From a virus: a stretch of 29,615 nucleotides of DNA. The stretch lies in IMG/VR virus record IMGVR_UViG_3300023096_000015, positions 1 to 29,615 of that record; one strand, 5' to 3'. The position numbers and the translations under genes were made by a program. The notes beneath the pieces were generated by a model that was not told where the DNA came from, made no database searches, and worked only from the letters and a program-made list of their open reading frames with translations. Below are positions 10,527 to 15,855 of this stretch, piece by piece; the first letter of the stretch is position 1, and every line of letters begins with the position of its first letter.

Positions 10527-12596
10527 TCAGAAAGACGGACGCGCCGCCTGCTGTTGGTTGCGCTGGGCCGCCTGTTGGGGCGCAAGCGCAGTGTCGACGC
10601 GGGTCTTATCGGCCTGCGTGAGCTTGAGAATGGCGCTAGCCCTCGTCTCATCGACGCGAGCCAGGGTTTCCATAATTTCGGGAGCCGTCATGCCCTGGTC
10701 GGGCGCGGCCTGCATATCGGGCTGTTGCGCCTGGCCGGCCTGAGCCAGCTTGTAGATGGTGTTGGCCTTCGTCTCCTCGACATCTGCCACACCCTGAGCC
10801 AGTTCGATTTGCATCGCCTCCATAGCGCCCGGAGGCGGCTGCTGGGGCTGCGAGGCCTGATCGAACGCGGCAAGGATTTCCTTCTGGGCGGCAGGCGGCA
10901 GATTGGCGGTCTGAATGAGCGCCTTGCCAATCGCCGCGACAACGTTCGGCGGCAGCGCCGCGCCTGCGGTCGTGAGCGCTTGACCAAGCGCCTGCTGGGC
11001 ATCCTCACGCAGCGTGACCGTATCCGGGCCTTCATCCAGCACAAAGTCGACCATAACCTTGCCGATGGGATTCTCGACGCCGATCACCTGACCCCACTCG
11101 TTCATGCGGGGCTGGTTGACGCCGATAAAGCCCGCAAGGCCCTGATCATCGGTAATGCGGACGAAGCGGGCACCGGTCCAATTGGTGCGGATGGCTTCCC
11201 ATGTCAGGGTGTAGGCCCGCAGCTTCATAGCGCGAACGCGGACGATGAACAGCCCGAGCTCGGAAATGGCGGCCTGTTGGAGCAGCGCTATTGCACGACC
11301 TGACTTGTTGGTGTCGCCCACGCCCATCGCAGTCGCGGTGTTGGGGCCGAAGTTCTCAATCTCTTCCTTGGCTTCTTGGAGTAGCTGCACATTGGCCAGA
11401 GCGACGTCTGTGTTGCTGTTGATGCGCAGCTTGCCAGACATGCCCTGCGGCATGGAAATGACGCCATCGACGCGCTGTGCCTCGCCACGCAGGCGCTCAA
11501 CGTCGTTGACGATGCCCTCTTCGACAATCACCTGTTTGGTGTTGAAGGCGTGCAGGCTCTTGGAACGGCGATGGTTGATTTCGTCCGCCGGCCCCTTGAG
11601 GTTGCGCACGAAGCCGTAGCGGTTGCCCTTCTCATCGATGTTGCATGTCTGCATCGAAAACGGGTCGGTCGACTTGCCACGCCCGTCGACGAACGGGCTG
11701 TCACCCTCGTAGAGAATATCGGTGCCGGTATAGACGGCGCGCTTCCACATAGTGCCTTCGCGGAACCACACGTCGATGACACGGGCCTTCTTGAGCTCGC
11801 CATCCCACCAGAGCGGTTCGCGATCCGGGTCCATGGCGTCCGCGTAGCTGCTGTCCTGCGAGAGAGATGTCAGAGACCCTTCGATCTCTGCCTCTTTGTC
11901 GGGAAGCCAGGCCACGAGCTCGTCCTTGGCCATCCATTTTGCCGTGCCTTTGTAACGGGCATCGGCAAAGTCAGGCTTGAACGAACGCGGGTCGTAGAAG
12001 AACGTCTCAGCCGGCACACGAACCTGAACAGGGTCGTTGGATTCGTCGTCGGTAGGCTCGAGTTCCAGCAGAAACCCGCCGATGCCGGCAACACACAAGT
12101 CGAGCATCACTTCGGAGAGCTCGCTTTCCCAGTAGCTGCCGTCCAATGCATAGCGCAGGCATTGCGTCGCCACATCGGCGCCATCGATATGAGCCGGCGT
12201 GCGCGGATAGGCCTTCGGATCCTGCCTCAAGCGCTCTAGGAGCCCGATAACGCCGTTGATCTTGCGCGCGACGCGGTTGTAGGTGATCGCCGGTTGCCCG
12301 CGCTCGGCAAGGGTCGAAAGCTCCTTCTCGGTCCACTGCTTGCAGTGGAAATAGCGATTGGATTCCCGGCGCTCGTCGATCTCGTCCGACTTCATGTCCA
12401 CGTAATCGCGCAGATATTTGCGGTACGTGGTCATGCGGTCGGCAGGCGATACCGTGGTTGCTGTGCCATCAGCCTCGCTGGCAGGAATGTAGCCCGGCCG
12501 CGCATCGGTAGACGGCACCATGCCCTTACGGCGGTCGTCAGGCGACACAACTCCCGGCGCCAGAACGACCGGCTGTTCGGCAAGCACTACCGCCAT
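10527..12596 (-). CDS. P22-like portal protein
   Basis: A 689-aa protein, close to P22 gp1 (725 aa). It contains the typical opening of the portal core (YRKYLRDYVDMKSDEIDERR, HCKQWTEKELSTLAERGQPA), ITYNRVARKINGVIGLLERL, and a helical Gln/Ala-rich C-terminal barrel-like part (about residues 580-689). The portal forms the dodecameric vertex ring for packaging and ejection. The start overlaps the terminase stop by 10 bases. An internal ATG at codon 26 is an alternative. Confidence 0.85.
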   Translation of the reverse strand: MAVVLAEQPVVLAPGVVSPDDRRKGMVPSTDARPGYIPASEADGTATTVSPADRMTTYRKYLRDYVDMKSDEIDERRESNRYFHCKQWTEKELSTLAERGQPAITYNRVARKINGVIGLLERLRQDPKAYPRTPAHIDGADVATQCLRYALDGSYWESELSEVMLDLCVAGIGGFLLELEPTDDESNDPVQVRVPAETFFYDPRSFKPDFADARYKGTAKWMAKDELVAWLPDKEAEIEGSLTSLSQDSSYADAMDPDREPLWWDGELKKARVIDVWFREGTMWKRAVYTGTDILYEGDSPFVDGRGKSTDPFSMQTCNIDEKGNRYGFVRNLKGPADEINHRRSKSLHAFNTKQVIVEEGIVNDVERLRGEAQRVDGVISMPQGMSGKLRINSNTDVALANVQLLQEAKEEIENFGPNTATAMGVGDTNKSGRAIALLQQAAISELGLFIVRVRAMKLRAYTLTWEAIRTNWTGARFVRITDDQGLAGFIGVNQPRMNEWGQVIGVENPIGKVMVDFVLDEGPDTVTLREDAQQALGQALTTAGAALPPNVVAAIGKALIQTANLPPAAQKEILAAFDQASQPQQPPPGAMEAMQIELAQGVADVEETKANTIYKLAQAGQAQQPDMQAAPDQGMTAPEIMETLARVDETRASAILKLTQADKTRVDTALAPQQAAQRNQQQAARPSF

Positions 12597-14062
12597 GAGG
12601 GCGAGCCCGCCGAGGTCTTGCCGATGGGCCGATAGCCGCTCGGCGCTTTCTCGGTCTTCTTGGTCTCAGACGGCAGCCACGGCCGCGACATACAGGCATA
12701 GCGCGCCTCGTCAGCGATATGGTCCTCGCTTGCCGTGTCGAGGTCTTCCGCGCGCACGGGATCGTGCTGGAGCACGGGAACGGTGCGGATGAACTCCTTG
12801 CAGGTATCAAACACGTACAGCATGGGCACTCCGTCCTGACCGCCTATGCGTTGGCGCATCTCGTCCCAGCCGCCCATGGCCCCGTTGCGGGCGATGCGCT
12901 TGTTGTCGGCGGGGCGGAAATAAACTTCGTGCTGAGCGAATATTTCGCTGCGGGCCGGGCCGCCGTCCTGCGTGAAGATCGACGGGTCAGCGACGGAGTA
13001 GGCAATCTTGTCTTTAGCGTCGCGGGCCGTGATGCCGGTCGCGACTTCCTCGGTCGTAAGCTTCAGGCCCGTGTTGGGCTTGCCTGGCTGGCAGCCGTAC
13101 CATTCGCGATAGCGGATCAGGGCGCCGCGCGGGATGCCGTGGTGCTCATCCCCTGCGACACACCACCATCCAACCGAGAAGGGCTTCGCGCTGCCCCAAT
13201 CGAATGAGCGGAACCGCATCCAATCGTCCGGCACCTCGAAGGCGTTGACGACGTTTCGCCCGCTCCACTTGTCGAAGAACGCGCCCTCGATCGCGCTCCA
13301 GTCGCCCTCAAGCCACGCCTTGACGAGCGCAGCAGAGCCGACCAGATGCAGCCGATTGATGTAGCCAGGGTCGCCATGCAGCAGCACCCGGTTGTCCGTG
13401 ATCCGCGACGGGATCACTGCCATCTTGTGCGTCTCGCCATTACTAAGCGGGCGAGTAATAACCTTCGGGCCATGCGGGAACGGCACCAGCCCATAACGCG
13501 CCGCTATCCAGTGCTGACCTGCGCCGCCGGGGTTGGCGGTGAGTATGAGCTGCACCGGAACGCCGCCAGCCGAACGCAGCACGCCGAACAAACGATCGAT
13601 GGGCGCGGGGTCAGGATATTGCCCGGCCTCCTCCACCCATGCGTCGGTGACGTTGCGCCCTTGGTATTCCTCAGCGTCCTTGATGCTGTCGAGATAGGCG
13701 AAGGCGACGCGCCCACCATTGGGCATGCGCCAGATTAGCTTGCTCTCGTTGAACTTGCCGCCGAGAGGCTTGAATATGTCCTTGCTGCGCTCAATCGCGT
13801 CTTCGCTCGACACCGTAGTGCGGCGGAACATGATCGCATTGAACTTCGGGCCGTAACGCTGTTCCTTAAGCGCCCACTTGCCAAGCACGCCGTCTGTCTT
13901 GCCGCCGCCGCGCGCGCCACCGAAGAACACCTCGGATAGCGGGCATTGCACCAGAGCCAGTTGGGGCTTGCTCTGCGGTCGCCAGACGATCCGCGTCTCA
14001 ATGCTCGGTGACGTGCTCGTTTTCCCACTCGGCTTCGGTGGGGAGGTCGCCGCTGATTGCAT
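12587..14062 (-). CDS. Terminase large subunit (packaging ATPase and nuclease)
   Basis: A 491-aa protein with the expected motor and nuclease motifs: Walker A GGARGGGKT at residues 48-56, Walker B VTDAWVEEA at 138-146 with the catalytic Glu pair, coupling motif LTANPGG near 174-180, and an RNase-H-like nuclease domain with Asp in SFDWG (about 288) and in YSVADPS (about 359). The length and neighbours fit the P22-type headful packaging system. The start overlaps the small terminase gene by 65 bases. No other ATG occurs before Walker A, so either 14062 or a non-ATG start is used. Confidence 0.9.
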   Translation of the reverse strand: MQSAATSPPKPSGKTSTSPSIETRIVWRPQSKPQLALVQCPLSEVFFGGARGGGKTDGVLGKWALKEQRYGPKFNAIMFRRTTVSSEDAIERSKDIFKPLGGKFNESKLIWRMPNGGRVAFAYLDSIKDAEEYQGRNVTDAWVEEAGQYPDPAPIDRLFGVLRSAGGVPVQLILTANPGGAGQHWIAARYGLVPFPHGPKVITRPLSNGETHKMAVIPSRITDNRVLLHGDPGYINRLHLVGSAALVKAWLEGDWSAIEGAFFDKWSGRNVVNAFEVPDDWMRFRSFDWGSAKPFSVGWWCVAGDEHHGIPRGALIRYREWYGCQPGKPNTGLKLTTEEVATGITARDAKDKIAYSVADPSIFTQDGGPARSEIFAQHEVYFRPADNKRIARNGAMGGWDEMRQRIGGQDGVPMLYVFDTCKEFIRTVPVLQHDPVRAEDLDTASEDHIADEARYACMSRPWLPSETKKTEKAPSGYRPIGKTSAGSPSWR

Positions 14063-14411
14063 GATTGATGTTCACGTTCTCAGAGCGCTCGACAATCAAG
14101 CCGTTGATCTTGGCAGCGTCCATCATCGCGGCGCGGGCGACGGCGAGGCCCGATGCTTCAGAGAGCGCTTCGGCTTTGTCCGCGATCAGCAGCAGGCGAT
14201 TGGTCACTGTCTCGATGGTCAATGCAGTGCGTTCGGCGCCCTTGGTCTGCAATTCCGCGACACGGGCCTGCACCTTGTCATTCCTTGTCATGCGGCTAGC
14301 GTTCGGTTCGCTGGGCGAATATCCCGCAGCCTCATATGCCTCGGCTTGGCTCTTGCCCTTCGCTAGCTCCTGAGCGAACCGCTCATGGCGGGCGTTAGCG
14401 AGGATCGGCAT
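13998..14411 (-). CDS. Terminase small subunit
   Basis: A 137-aa protein starting MPILANARHERFAQELAKGK, followed by SQAEAYEAAGYSPSEPNASR. This is the characteristic helix-turn-helix opening of small terminases, which bind the pac site and recruit the large subunit. A helical middle (ETVTNRLLLIADKAEALSEA) should form the oligomerisation core. The ATG at 14411 is chosen because the motif starts right after it; a longer frame upstream adds an Arg-rich stretch that is antisense-like. It overlaps the upstream 58-aa gene by 17 bases and the large terminase gene by 65. Confidence 0.85.
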   Translation of the reverse strand: MPILANARHERFAQELAKGKSQAEAYEAAGYSPSEPNASRMTRNDKVQARVAELQTKGAERTALTIETVTNRLLLIADKAEALSEASGLAVARAAMMDAAKINGLIVERSENVNINHAISGDLPTEAEWENEHVTEH

Positions 14412-14571
14412 TGCGCTTCGAGGCCTTCTTTGTGGCCTTCTTCGCAGGCGTGTTAGCCGCCACACGGGCAGCCATGCTGCGAGCATCGTCTTCGGCCTTG
14501 GCCTCTCCACGCATTACGGCATCAGCCGCGATTTCCATGGCGGTAGCGACATCTTCAGCATCGTTGCTCAT
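14395..14571 (-). CDS. Small protein with acidic N-terminus and basic tail, 58 aa
   Basis: The frame starts MSNDAEDVATAMEIAADAVM and ends in a Lys/Arg-rich tail (PAKKATKKASKRNADPR). AGAGGG lies about 8 bases ahead of the ATG, and the stop lies 17 bases inside the small terminase gene, so it looks like the first gene of the terminase operon. The basic tail suggests nucleic-acid binding. No family was recognised. Confidence 0.6.
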   Translation of the reverse strand: MSNDAEDVATAMEIAADAVMRGEAKAEDDARSMAARVAANTPAKKATKKASKRNADPR

Positions 14572-14591: not shown

Positions 14592-14623
14592 AAAGAAAAC
14601 CCGCCGCGCGGTGAGCGGGCGGG
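14592..14623 (-). terminator. Rho-independent terminator ahead of the terminase operon
   Basis: On the minus strand CCCGCC, a 12-base loop and GGCGGG are followed by TTTTCTTT. This is a good intrinsic terminator. It lies after the structured RNA block and 21 bases before the first gene of the late operon, so late transcription must read through it or start beyond it. Confidence 0.75.
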
Positions 14624-14631
14624 CCGTAAAC

Positions 14632-14826
14632 TCAGGTAAACTCGATAAACCGGCACGAGCGAACCGTGCCCACTCCACCGGCAGGAGTGGAGCCCTTGAA
14701 GCCATTACAGCGCCGGGTTGCATTCGGCGGCGCTGGGCTCTGACGCTGACGGGATAGAAACCAGCCGGGGTGCGCATCGTGGAGAGGCGTGGCCGGTGTT
14801 GTTGTCGTGGACCGGGCGCCGGTCAT
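14632..14826 (-). CDS. Doubtful 64-aa frame across the structured RNA block
   Basis: The frame starts MTGARSTTTTPATPLHDAHP after GAAGAG and ends TVRSCRFIEFT. It reads through all three hairpins of the structured block, and its second half (SPAPPNATRRCNGF) is unlike an ordinary protein. It may be a small protein of a kind often annotated in prophages, or only the translation of a conserved RNA. A second, out-of-frame option (14705-14917, 70 aa) covers part of the same region. I favour RNA. Confidence 0.25.
   Translation of the reverse strand: MTGARSTTTTPATPLHDAHPGWFLSRQRQSPAPPNATRRCNGFKGSTPAGGVGTVRSCRFIEFT
14640..14745 (-). ncRNA. Structured RNA element of three hairpins in the late leader
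   Basis: Three inverted repeats lie side by side: GGCACG/CGTGCC (14652-14657, 14665-14670), CACTCC/GGAGTG (14671-14676, 14684-14689) and a long stem of GAGCCC/GGGCTC (14690-14695, 14735-14740) stacked on AGCGCCG/CGGCGCT (14709-14715, 14728-14734), with a 13-base asymmetric bulge and a 12-base loop. Minus-strand transcription from the promoter at 14994-15021 would pass through it and then reach the terminator at 14592-14623. It could be a small RNA similar in plan to phage C4 antisense RNA, or a put-like antitermination element. Family not confirmed. Confidence 0.5.
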
Positions 14827-14943
14827 CTCTTCGCCCTTGCGGGCGATAGCTTCCGGCGCCTGCGGTAGCCTCCGGATGATCAATCCCGGTGTAGCCGCAC
14901 ATGTTGCCGCCAGTCATATGGGCCGGCGCCGAAACTCTGAATC

Positions 14944-14986
14944 AAAAAGCTCCCGCGCTGCGGAGGGTACCGCGCAAATCAGGAGC
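14944..14986 (-). terminator. Promoter-proximal hairpin with T-run (tR'-like attenuator)
   Basis: On the minus strand GCTCC and GGAGC (82-86 and 49-53 of the 149xx block) enclose CGCG/CGCG and end in CTTTTTG. The hairpin begins about where the promoter at 14994-15021 should start transcription, so the product would be only about 43 bases. Such an immediate terminator is typical of late promoters controlled by an antiterminator. Confidence 0.5.
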
Positions 14987-14993
14987 CTGCCGA

Positions 14994-15021
14994 ATCATAC
15001 CCTTTTGGCCCCCGGTGTCAA
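14994..15021 (-). promoter_or_regulatory. Strong sigma70-type promoter, candidate late promoter
   Basis: On the minus strand a perfect TTGACA (15021-15016) and TATGAT (14999-14994) are separated by 16 bases. It lies in the gap directly after the DUF6456-like gene and points into the hairpin block and the terminase operon. It is the best promoter match in the window. The gap from 14572 to 15025 contains this promoter, two terminators and the structured block. Confidence 0.75.
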
Positions 15022-15025
15022 ATTC

Positions 15026-15640
15026 TTACGCCGGCTCTTTCTGCTTCCTCAACAGGCCCTTATCCGCAAGCCCGAAGGCCACAGCCAGTTCGTCGAGACA
15101 CCCCCGGAACCGCCATCCGAGGCGGTCACGATCCGTCTTGGAAATCATGCCCCGCGAGGTCGCCACTTGGTCGAGCGTCAGCCCCGTGCCGAGCACTTCG
15201 CGAATGAGAAACACACCGTTGAGCCCTACGGCTGCGTCCGCTCTTGCGAGCCCCCTCACCGCTTCCTTGACCCGATCCGTAATGCCCTCGGTCACCATGC
15301 CGCCGCCGTCTACCGGTTCCTTGGTGGTGTCCATGGCCTTGATACCGCCGATTCCTGCCGCCTCGAACAGCGTCTGCCACTTCCGACCCGCCTCGAACTG
15401 GCAGCGGTCGATCTGCCGCCGGTCGAGCATGTACGCCAGCGTGTCGCCCCGCAGATTGCGAGTAACCGTGAGCGTAGACCCATCACCAGATGGGCAGGGG
15501 ACGCGCGTGGCGGCAGGAATGACCCCCTTGGCGAACTCCGTAGCCCTGCGGTCGTGGATCGACTCCACGGGCGTCCTGACGCGCTTCTCGCGCTTATTCG
15601 CGGTGTGCTGGACGAATGCCTCTAGCTGCTTGCGTGCCAT
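15026..15640 (-). CDS. DUF6456-like protein, candidate late regulator
   Basis: A 204-aa basic protein starting MARKQLEAFVQHTANKREKR. The central LDRRQIDRCQFEAGRKWQTL and the C-terminal part with LGTGLTLDQVATSRGMISK and a following helix (CLDELAVAFGLAD) suit the DUF6456 family, which looks like a DNA-binding fold found in alphaproteobacteria and their phages. As last gene of the early operon, immediately before a strong promoter with a proximal terminator, it sits where lambda carries the antiterminator Q. The regulator role is inference. The start is in a TGATG overlap; a TTG one codon upstream is possible. Confidence 0.6.
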   Translation of the reverse strand: MARKQLEAFVQHTANKREKRVRTPVESIHDRRATEFAKGVIPAATRVPCPSGDGSTLTVTRNLRGDTLAYMLDRRQIDRCQFEAGRKWQTLFEAAGIGGIKAMDTTKEPVDGGGMVTEGITDRVKEAVRGLARADAAVGLNGVFLIREVLGTGLTLDQVATSRGMISKTDRDRLGWRFRGCLDELAVAFGLADKGLLRKQKEPA

Positions 15641-15855
15641 CAAGATTTGCCCCGCGCTTTATCGACGGCTTCCAGAAGAATGAACGTCGCGAACTCACGG
15701 CTCACATGGGACGAGGTGAGCCTCACATGGCCATCTTGGTCGACGCCGACCACAATCACGTCCTGATAGTCATCAGCGTTGCGCGCAGCGAGGCTGAGGC
15801 ATTCGGCCGGCGTCATGTTCTCGTGCGGATTGAGTTGGAAGACTTGGGCCACCAT
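15640..15855 (-). CDS. Small hypothetical phage protein, 71 aa
   Basis: MVAQVFQLNPHENMTPAECL leads into DVIVVGVDQDGHVRLTSSHV and a C-terminal helix (FATFILLEAVDKARG). The layout, a short strand pair with Asp-Gly turn followed by SSH and a helix, is common among small early proteins of phages, with no known function. Both ends are TGATG overlaps. A GTG one codon upstream is an alternative start. Confidence 0.6.
   Translation of the reverse strand: MVAQVFQLNPHENMTPAECLSLAARNADDYQDVIVVGVDQDGHVRLTSSHVSREFATFILLEAVDKARGKS

Follow-up and report, generated by a model that had tools for sequence, protein, structure and literature searches.

GafZ, a protein of alphaproteobacterial gene transfer agents, has been shown to be an antiterminator, and it requires an element that lies between the -35 and -10 hexamers (PMC11150451). 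The related GafA is annotated as DUF6456 (PMC9638019, PMC9765227), and GafZ corresponds to the C-terminal part of GafA. The authors who characterized GafZ reported no similarity between its AlphaFold model and either Q or AlpA (PMC11150451). A separate body of work concerns the abiF RNA, an antitoxin that silences the Cas13-related HEPN ribonuclease AbiF by binding to it (PMC12373285, PMC12737573), and pseudo-ToxI of phage PhiTE provides a precedent for antitoxin mimicry by a phage RNA (PMC3475682). Within the open literature (subscription journals lay outside our scope), we found no paper proposing that phage abiF RNAs act as decoys.

Here, we analyze a region in which these two subjects meet. 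The window, by which we mean the whole 29,615-nt stretch of virus record IMGVR_UViG_3300023096_000015, is only part of a phage genome, and an original prediction made from its sequence had placed a Q/PR'/tR'-like late-control region, with an added structured leader, upstream of the terminase genes. We propose, with a probability of roughly 0.6, a single explanation that joins a late-control switch, RNA cargo carried in its leader, and an anti-AbiF decoy within that cargo. What is new here is the orphan antitoxin RNA.

Results

The late-control features of the window are all encoded on the minus strand. A gene for a 204-aa DUF6456-like protein (15026..15640; phrog_21451, a family annotated with unknown function), for which an alternative TTG start one codon earlier at 15643 is possible, is directly followed by the promoter TTGACA-N16-TATGAT and a conserved TCGG (14994..15021). 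This promoter matches the consensus at 11/12 bases and is the sole site with at least 10/12 across the whole 29.6-kb window, in keeping with the prediction that the strongest promoter of the stretch would directly follow this gene. With transcription predicted from the sequence to start near 14988, the first 40 nt of the transcript fold at -22 kcal/mol into a tR'-like hairpin (14987-14949) followed by TTTTT (14948-14944), and this terminator 1 (14944..14987), whose TTTTT lies about 43 nt after +1, has a d'Aubenton-Carafa score of about +20 against a threshold of 0. The hairpin with five T's expected near +1 is thus present, and a conserved TGATTTGC sits in its 5' strand.

Terminator 2 (GCCCGCCCGCTCACCGCGCGGCGGGTTTTCTTT; 14592..14624) lies immediately 5' of the late operon and scores +24 to +41 by the same measure, varying with the stem that is chosen. 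The operon opens with a 58-aa ORF (14395..14571) and continues, by profile matches, with the small (13998..14411; Terminase_2, phrog_51) and large (12587..14062) terminase subunits, so that the foreseen order of a second T-run terminator and then the terminase genes is what the window contains. Since the first late ATG, at 14571, stands only about 25 nt past terminator 2, there is no space between them for another sigma-70 promoter. The prediction had also counted three hairpins between the terminators; hairpins are indeed there, including AGCGCCG...CGGCGCT (14708..14736) and two adjacent ones (14652..14693) found by folding, but there are more than three, and one of them is an abiF RNA. A 70-aa ORF that overlaps the leader (14705-14917) was taken as chance.

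The arrangement is conserved in relatives. Four relatives of the 204-aa gene (L123-L126) retain the promoter as TTGAC-N15-GGTATGATTCGG and bases resembling TGATTTGC in the early transcript, while their spacers have diverged except at GG-N-C-R-A-A-N-R-GGG; L401 likewise keeps the promoter with a diverged spacer. These partly conserved bases, which form no clear palindrome, make the spacer of the window (15000..15015) a candidate antiterminator-loading element, positioned like the QBE, ABE, and ZBE elements (compare PMC11150451). The promoter pattern occurred in only 7 viral stretches, 5/7 of which belong to the family of the window gene; the matches L395 and L397 stand in other contexts and may be chance. 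Across 24 loci, a promoter followed by a terminator was found four times within the 1.4 kb upstream of TerL (33 kb in total) and never in 395 kb elsewhere in the same loci, both strands included.

Those four sites are the window, L401, L146, and L173. A DUF6456-like gene accompanies the site in the window and in L401, and no such gene was detected in the vicinity of the L146 and L173 sites. L401 repeats the order of the window, with a DUF6456-like gene, promoter, T-run hairpin, second terminator, and terminase, and no tRNA or abiF RNA was seen in its leader. Terminator 2 directly precedes the late ribosome-binding site or ATG in the window, L123, and L401, and in L173 about 20 nt separate the end of the single terminator from the terS ATG. 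With terminators in this position, RNA polymerase would have to cross one to reach the late genes. In L146 (1686-1755) and L173 (3703-3781), we also observed that a promoter and immediate terminator stand before terminase, and another regulator may serve the same layout there.

We examined whether the DUF6456-like label applies to the 204-aa protein. The window protein alone has no Pfam match, and PF20057 (DUF6456) matches 4/12 family members with a best E-value of 1.1e-5. An hhalign comparison of the protein family with DUF6456, the latter represented by 16 chromosomal sequences of which one (L427) was translated on the wrong strand, gave a probability of 96% and an E-value of 4e-9 over 127 columns, which is the whole domain. 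The label is therefore right at the family level.

We also compared two AlphaFold models with the PDB, one for the window protein and one for a relative 39% identical to it (pLDDT 69 for each). Q21 was the best or near-best fold match, with Z 7.9 over 92 aa at 2.9 Å for 6p1b and Z 7.3 over 98 aa at 3.4 Å for 6p1c, both below the safe cut-off of 8. Sigma region 4 domains reached similar Z values with both models; the Q21 alignments span 92-98 residues and most sigma-4 chains 57-77. An AlpA chain (7xya_G) appeared in one of the two fold lists with Z 5.5. None of the Foldseek E-values for these models was significant, a sequence profile found no antiterminator in the PDB, and no sequence similarity of the protein to Q was found. 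The window protein may have a fold like that of Q21, AlpA, and sigma region 4, and our two models contradict the statement of the GafZ authors only partly. The suggestion that this protein is an antiterminator is likely right given its membership in the GafZ/GafA family, of which GafZ antiterminates. The accompanying claim that this would be a new role for DUF6456 does not hold, because GafZ already has that role (PMC11150451).

The leader between the terminators contains an abiF RNA (RF03085; 14760..14796), an AbiF antitoxin-type hairpin that the Rfam covariance model scores at 44.5 bits (E 3e-5) against a gathering score of 37, and which is the only Rfam RNA in the window. It has a 6-bp outer and a 3-bp inner stem closed by the loop CUCUCNACGAU, and 9/9 pairs form, one of them G-U. 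Its 5' leader, AACAACA before CC (14797..14803), lies outside the Rfam model and also stands in front of AbiF-linked RNAs of Rubrivivax, Ahrensia, and others; a AACAACACC leader is common to the window RNA and AbiF-linked RNAs. No AbiF gene (PF07751, Abi_2) occurs in the 29.6-kb record, and with no such gene beside the RNA, we do not class the window as an AbiF type III toxin-antitoxin system. Upstream of the hairpin lies a conserved noncoding RNA element, CGCCC-loop-GGGC-GAA-GAGATGACCGG (14819..14845), which recurs in 8 viral stretches, related RNA arrays among them. The "added structured leader" of the prediction is therefore real, although the orphan abiF RNA and the conserved noncoding modules within it had been overlooked.

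A blastn search of the whole leader against phages gave no match. Sister phages have no abiF RNA at the leader position, and some hold a tRNA there; because the abiF RNA is missing from these phages, we regard it as movable cargo and not as part of the switch. Related arrays share the CGCCC-loop-GGGC-GAGATGACCGG element together with the same terminator as the window, and terminator 2 is near-identical in L123, L389, and L392. A Mesorhizobium sequence (L379) carries a 91%-identical abiF RNA with flanks that resemble these arrays.

Several relatives carry long, structured, and apparently noncoding RNA arrays (L389, 6558-7858; L391, 1049-2349; L392, 5929-7229; L123, 3047-3840). These arrays, some of which come directly after tRNAs, have recurring blocks (e.g., CCCTGTGGAGGGGATCGCAGCG... 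and GCGCGGGTGCAAGTCCCAGGCGAGGTCGGCACGGTCCCGGCGC), and the L123 array matches no Rfam family; it is possible that they represent new noncoding RNA families. In another relative (L160, 2623-2742), a skipping-rope RNA (RF02924) lies upstream of terminase, near the same place.

We then asked how widely abiF RNAs occur apart from their toxin. Two scans of the viral collection with conserved-base patterns each returned at least 120 matches, a non-random sample of loci that includes near-identical contigs. Since chance can produce matches to a pattern as short as the first one (GCCTCTCNACGATGC), outer-stem pairing was required of every copy in the tRNA count described below. Among the matches listed, an AbiF HEPN motif lay within 2.5 kb of the RNA at 27/99 loci from bacterial genomes versus 0/216 viral loci. 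Pfam Abi_2 was found in 26/48 downstream ORFs of the bacterial set, in none of the 50 viral records searched in full, and in none of nine isolate phages, eight of which had been brought in by the RNA search. The same Abi_2 search picked up phiC2, which carries both AbiF and the RNA.

Isolates with an abiF RNA above the RF03085 threshold comprise Aeromonas T7-Ah, PZL-Ah152, PZL-Ah8, PT2, Salicola CGphi29, mycobacteriophage LittleE, Synechococcus S-SRM01, and ctMEh928; Rhizobium phage Pasto scores below it. Among the matches listed, a tRNA lay within 300 nt of 75/190 viral copies with a paired outer stem, compared with 21 at random, and the nearest tRNA was on the same strand in 78/79 cases, mostly starting 24-31 nt after the loop. 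In the T7-like Aeromonas phages, the RNA begins just past CTATAGGGAT, a T7-type promoter sequence, and in CGphi29 it sits within the 0.8-kb gap that precedes the terminase genes, a position like that in the window. Phage abiF RNAs thus occur within tRNA arrays on the same strand, downstream of T7-type promoters, or ahead of terminase.

The stem of these RNAs covaries. Across 55 distinct sequences (54 viral, among the matches listed, plus the window), 87% of stem cells pair, and there are 93 double-sided stem changes versus 32 in shuffles; PZL-Ah8 carries a compensatory change in the stem. Conservation of the loop is not evidence, because the search pattern itself prescribed it.

Strong AbiF homologues were present in 8/297 Hyphomicrobiales genomes, and the seven that we inspected all have other apical loops. 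Upstream of these AbiF genes (L415-L421), we observed hairpins that have the abiF outer stem, with apical loops that differ and can be longer. The RF03085 model seems too restrictive, and specificity may lie in the loop. A scan with RF03085 over the same 297 genomes, which scored 21 candidates per genome, was insensitive and is left out of these results. In an Ignavibacteriales sequence (L310, 7564-7722), two tandem abiF RNAs precede an AbiF gene, as reported for C. difficile, and LittleE (L411, 2534-2615) has a match to the DUF3800-IV RNA (42.9 bits, below threshold) beside a tRNA and 1 kb from its abiF RNA. The Brevundimonas jumbo phage Bajun (L382, 1501-1533) holds an abiF-like hairpin with a AACAACACC leader within a 13-tRNA cluster, below the Rfam threshold, and we retain it as no more than a lead. 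Searches of plasmids gave only short matches.

Some candidate carriers were rejected. A DNA region of lactococcal phage sk1 is said, in work attributed to Rince in 2000, to protect phage 712 from AbiF; sk1 has no RF03085 match, and its anti-AbiF region is thus not explained by this RNA family. The cluster F mycobacteriophages Ardmore and Flathead, with 85% identity by BLAST, have no hairpin and no Rfam match, and Caulobacter phage RW has no RF03085 match.

Discussion

We interpret this region as the late-transcription control of a tailed phage whose hosts are alphaproteobacteria, probably Hyphomicrobiales. Beside the gene of its own regulator, a strong sigma-70 promoter would produce a transcript that ends after about 45 nt at terminator 1, and polymerase that leaks past this point would, judging from sequence and conservation, be stopped again at terminator 2 before the late operon. 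The phage-encoded DUF6456-like protein, itself related to GafZ, probably loads onto RNA polymerase by way of the -35/-10 spacer element, and polymerase loaded in this way would be carried through both terminators into the terminase and structural genes. The Q/PR'/tR'-like reading with regulated read-through is well supported by the conserved layout, the place of terminator 2 just before the late start, and the published antitermination by GafZ, while the part of the prediction that assigned a new role to the family falls away. The leader between the terminators would serve as a cargo bay for small RNAs, with tRNAs in relatives and the abiF RNA here.

Other readings of the transcriptional layout have to be weighed. 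Promoter and terminators could bracket a self-contained small-RNA array, with the late genes reached by early read-through or from an unrecognised promoter, and relatives do hold tRNAs and structured RNAs between the same promoter and the conserved terminator. However, L401 and L173 retain the promoter with its terminator(s) and carry little RNA cargo or none, and a sigma-70 promoter has no space between terminator 2 and the first late ATG, so we consider such a unit unlikely. It also seems improbable that the DUF6456-like protein is a sigma-4-like activator of initiation (compare the mode first proposed for GafA, and RinA), with late genes transcribed by leaky termination. The equal scores of sigma region 4 structures and Q21 and the position of the promoter at the late boundary would fit an activator, yet a near-consensus promoter should need none, and this one has two terminators downstream; GafZ, from the same family, is an antiterminator, and Q21 aligns over a longer stretch than most sigma-4 chains. 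A mechanism in which termination is suppressed by the leader RNA, in the manner of HK022 put or an EAR element, strikes us as very improbable: the structured element at 14845-14819 is conserved and also present in tRNA arrays, but no such element was seen in the leader of L401 (by eye) or L173, and an Rfam search of the window found no put or EAR.

Under the late-control reading that we prefer, the abiF hairpin would be released from the leader or used within it. Given that no toxin accompanies it, its most likely role is that of a decoy acting in trans to neutralise AbiF from the host cell or a resident prophage. The RNA might instead tame an AbiF encoded elsewhere on the same phage, or work as a hairpin for spacing or processing. 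Two points speak for such a role, which we nevertheless doubt: the window covers a fragment of a phage genome, and some prophages carry complete AbiF systems (phiC2; PMC12373285). On the other side, no Abi_2 was found in any of the 8 isolate phage records that contain the RNA, among them lytic T7-like phages, and the bound loop and stem are kept across differing contexts, with the proviso that the loop was fixed by the search pattern. Weak points of the decoy reading are that terminator 1 should keep the abiF RNA low until antitermination, that so few of the Hyphomicrobiales genomes (8/297) yielded a strong AbiF homologue, and that the seven examined differ from it in their apical loops. On the sequence evidence, an anti-AbiF decoy carried as cargo in a late leader is the most likely identity of this RNA.

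A broader proposal, for which we see about even odds, is that phages of many unrelated lineages hold abiF RNAs without the toxin as standing decoys against AbiF, the HEPN ribonuclease that gave rise to Cas13, and make them from any strong source of RNA at their disposal, be it tRNA arrays, T7-type promoters, or, in the window, an antitermination-controlled late leader. If this is true, RNA antitoxin mimicry would be a common phage counter-defence, and not a laboratory-selected rarity, aimed at the ancestor of Cas13. The decoy idea is open to immediate test in the cultured phages Aeromonas T7-Ah, PZL-Ah152, Salicola CGphi29, and Synechococcus S-SRM01. Our reading, if true, would also add phages to gene transfer agents as users of GafZ-type antitermination and would point to phage late leaders as slots in which small-RNA cargo is carried.

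The layout resembles the Q-PR'-tR' region of phage 21 and lambda, where a regulator gene, a strong promoter, and an immediate terminator likewise precede the late genes, and it differs in having two terminators with RNA cargo between them. GafZ and GafA share the domain of the window protein by profile comparison and have a sigma-like helix-turn-helix (PMC11150451, PMC9638019); they act at the promoter of a head and tail gene cluster through an element between -35 and -10 (PMC11150451). In contrast, the window belongs to a phage and has a strong promoter with promoter-proximal intrinsic terminators, and whereas the ZBE of GafZ is palindromic, this is not clearly so for the conserved spacer of the window. 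AlpA of Pseudomonas aeruginosa also uses an element within the promoter with a terminator downstream (PMC9371919, PMC7969949), although it belongs to a different family and governs a host cell-death pathway, not phage late genes.

The RNA itself shares the RF03085 motif, stem, loop, and 5' leader with the AbiF type III system (RCd22, PMC12373285; PbAbiF, reviewed in PMC12737573), but it stands in the window without an AbiF toxin gene and is embedded in a late leader. An abiF sRNA has been annotated in cyanophage S-CREM1, in a paper that proposes no AbiF-decoy role (PMC9964418). The closest parallel is pseudo-ToxI of PhiTE, likewise a copy of an RNA antitoxin that a phage carries without the matching toxin (PMC3475682), from which the abiF RNA differs in being a single hairpin of another family, paired with another toxin, and a standing cargo in many phages as a putative decoy.
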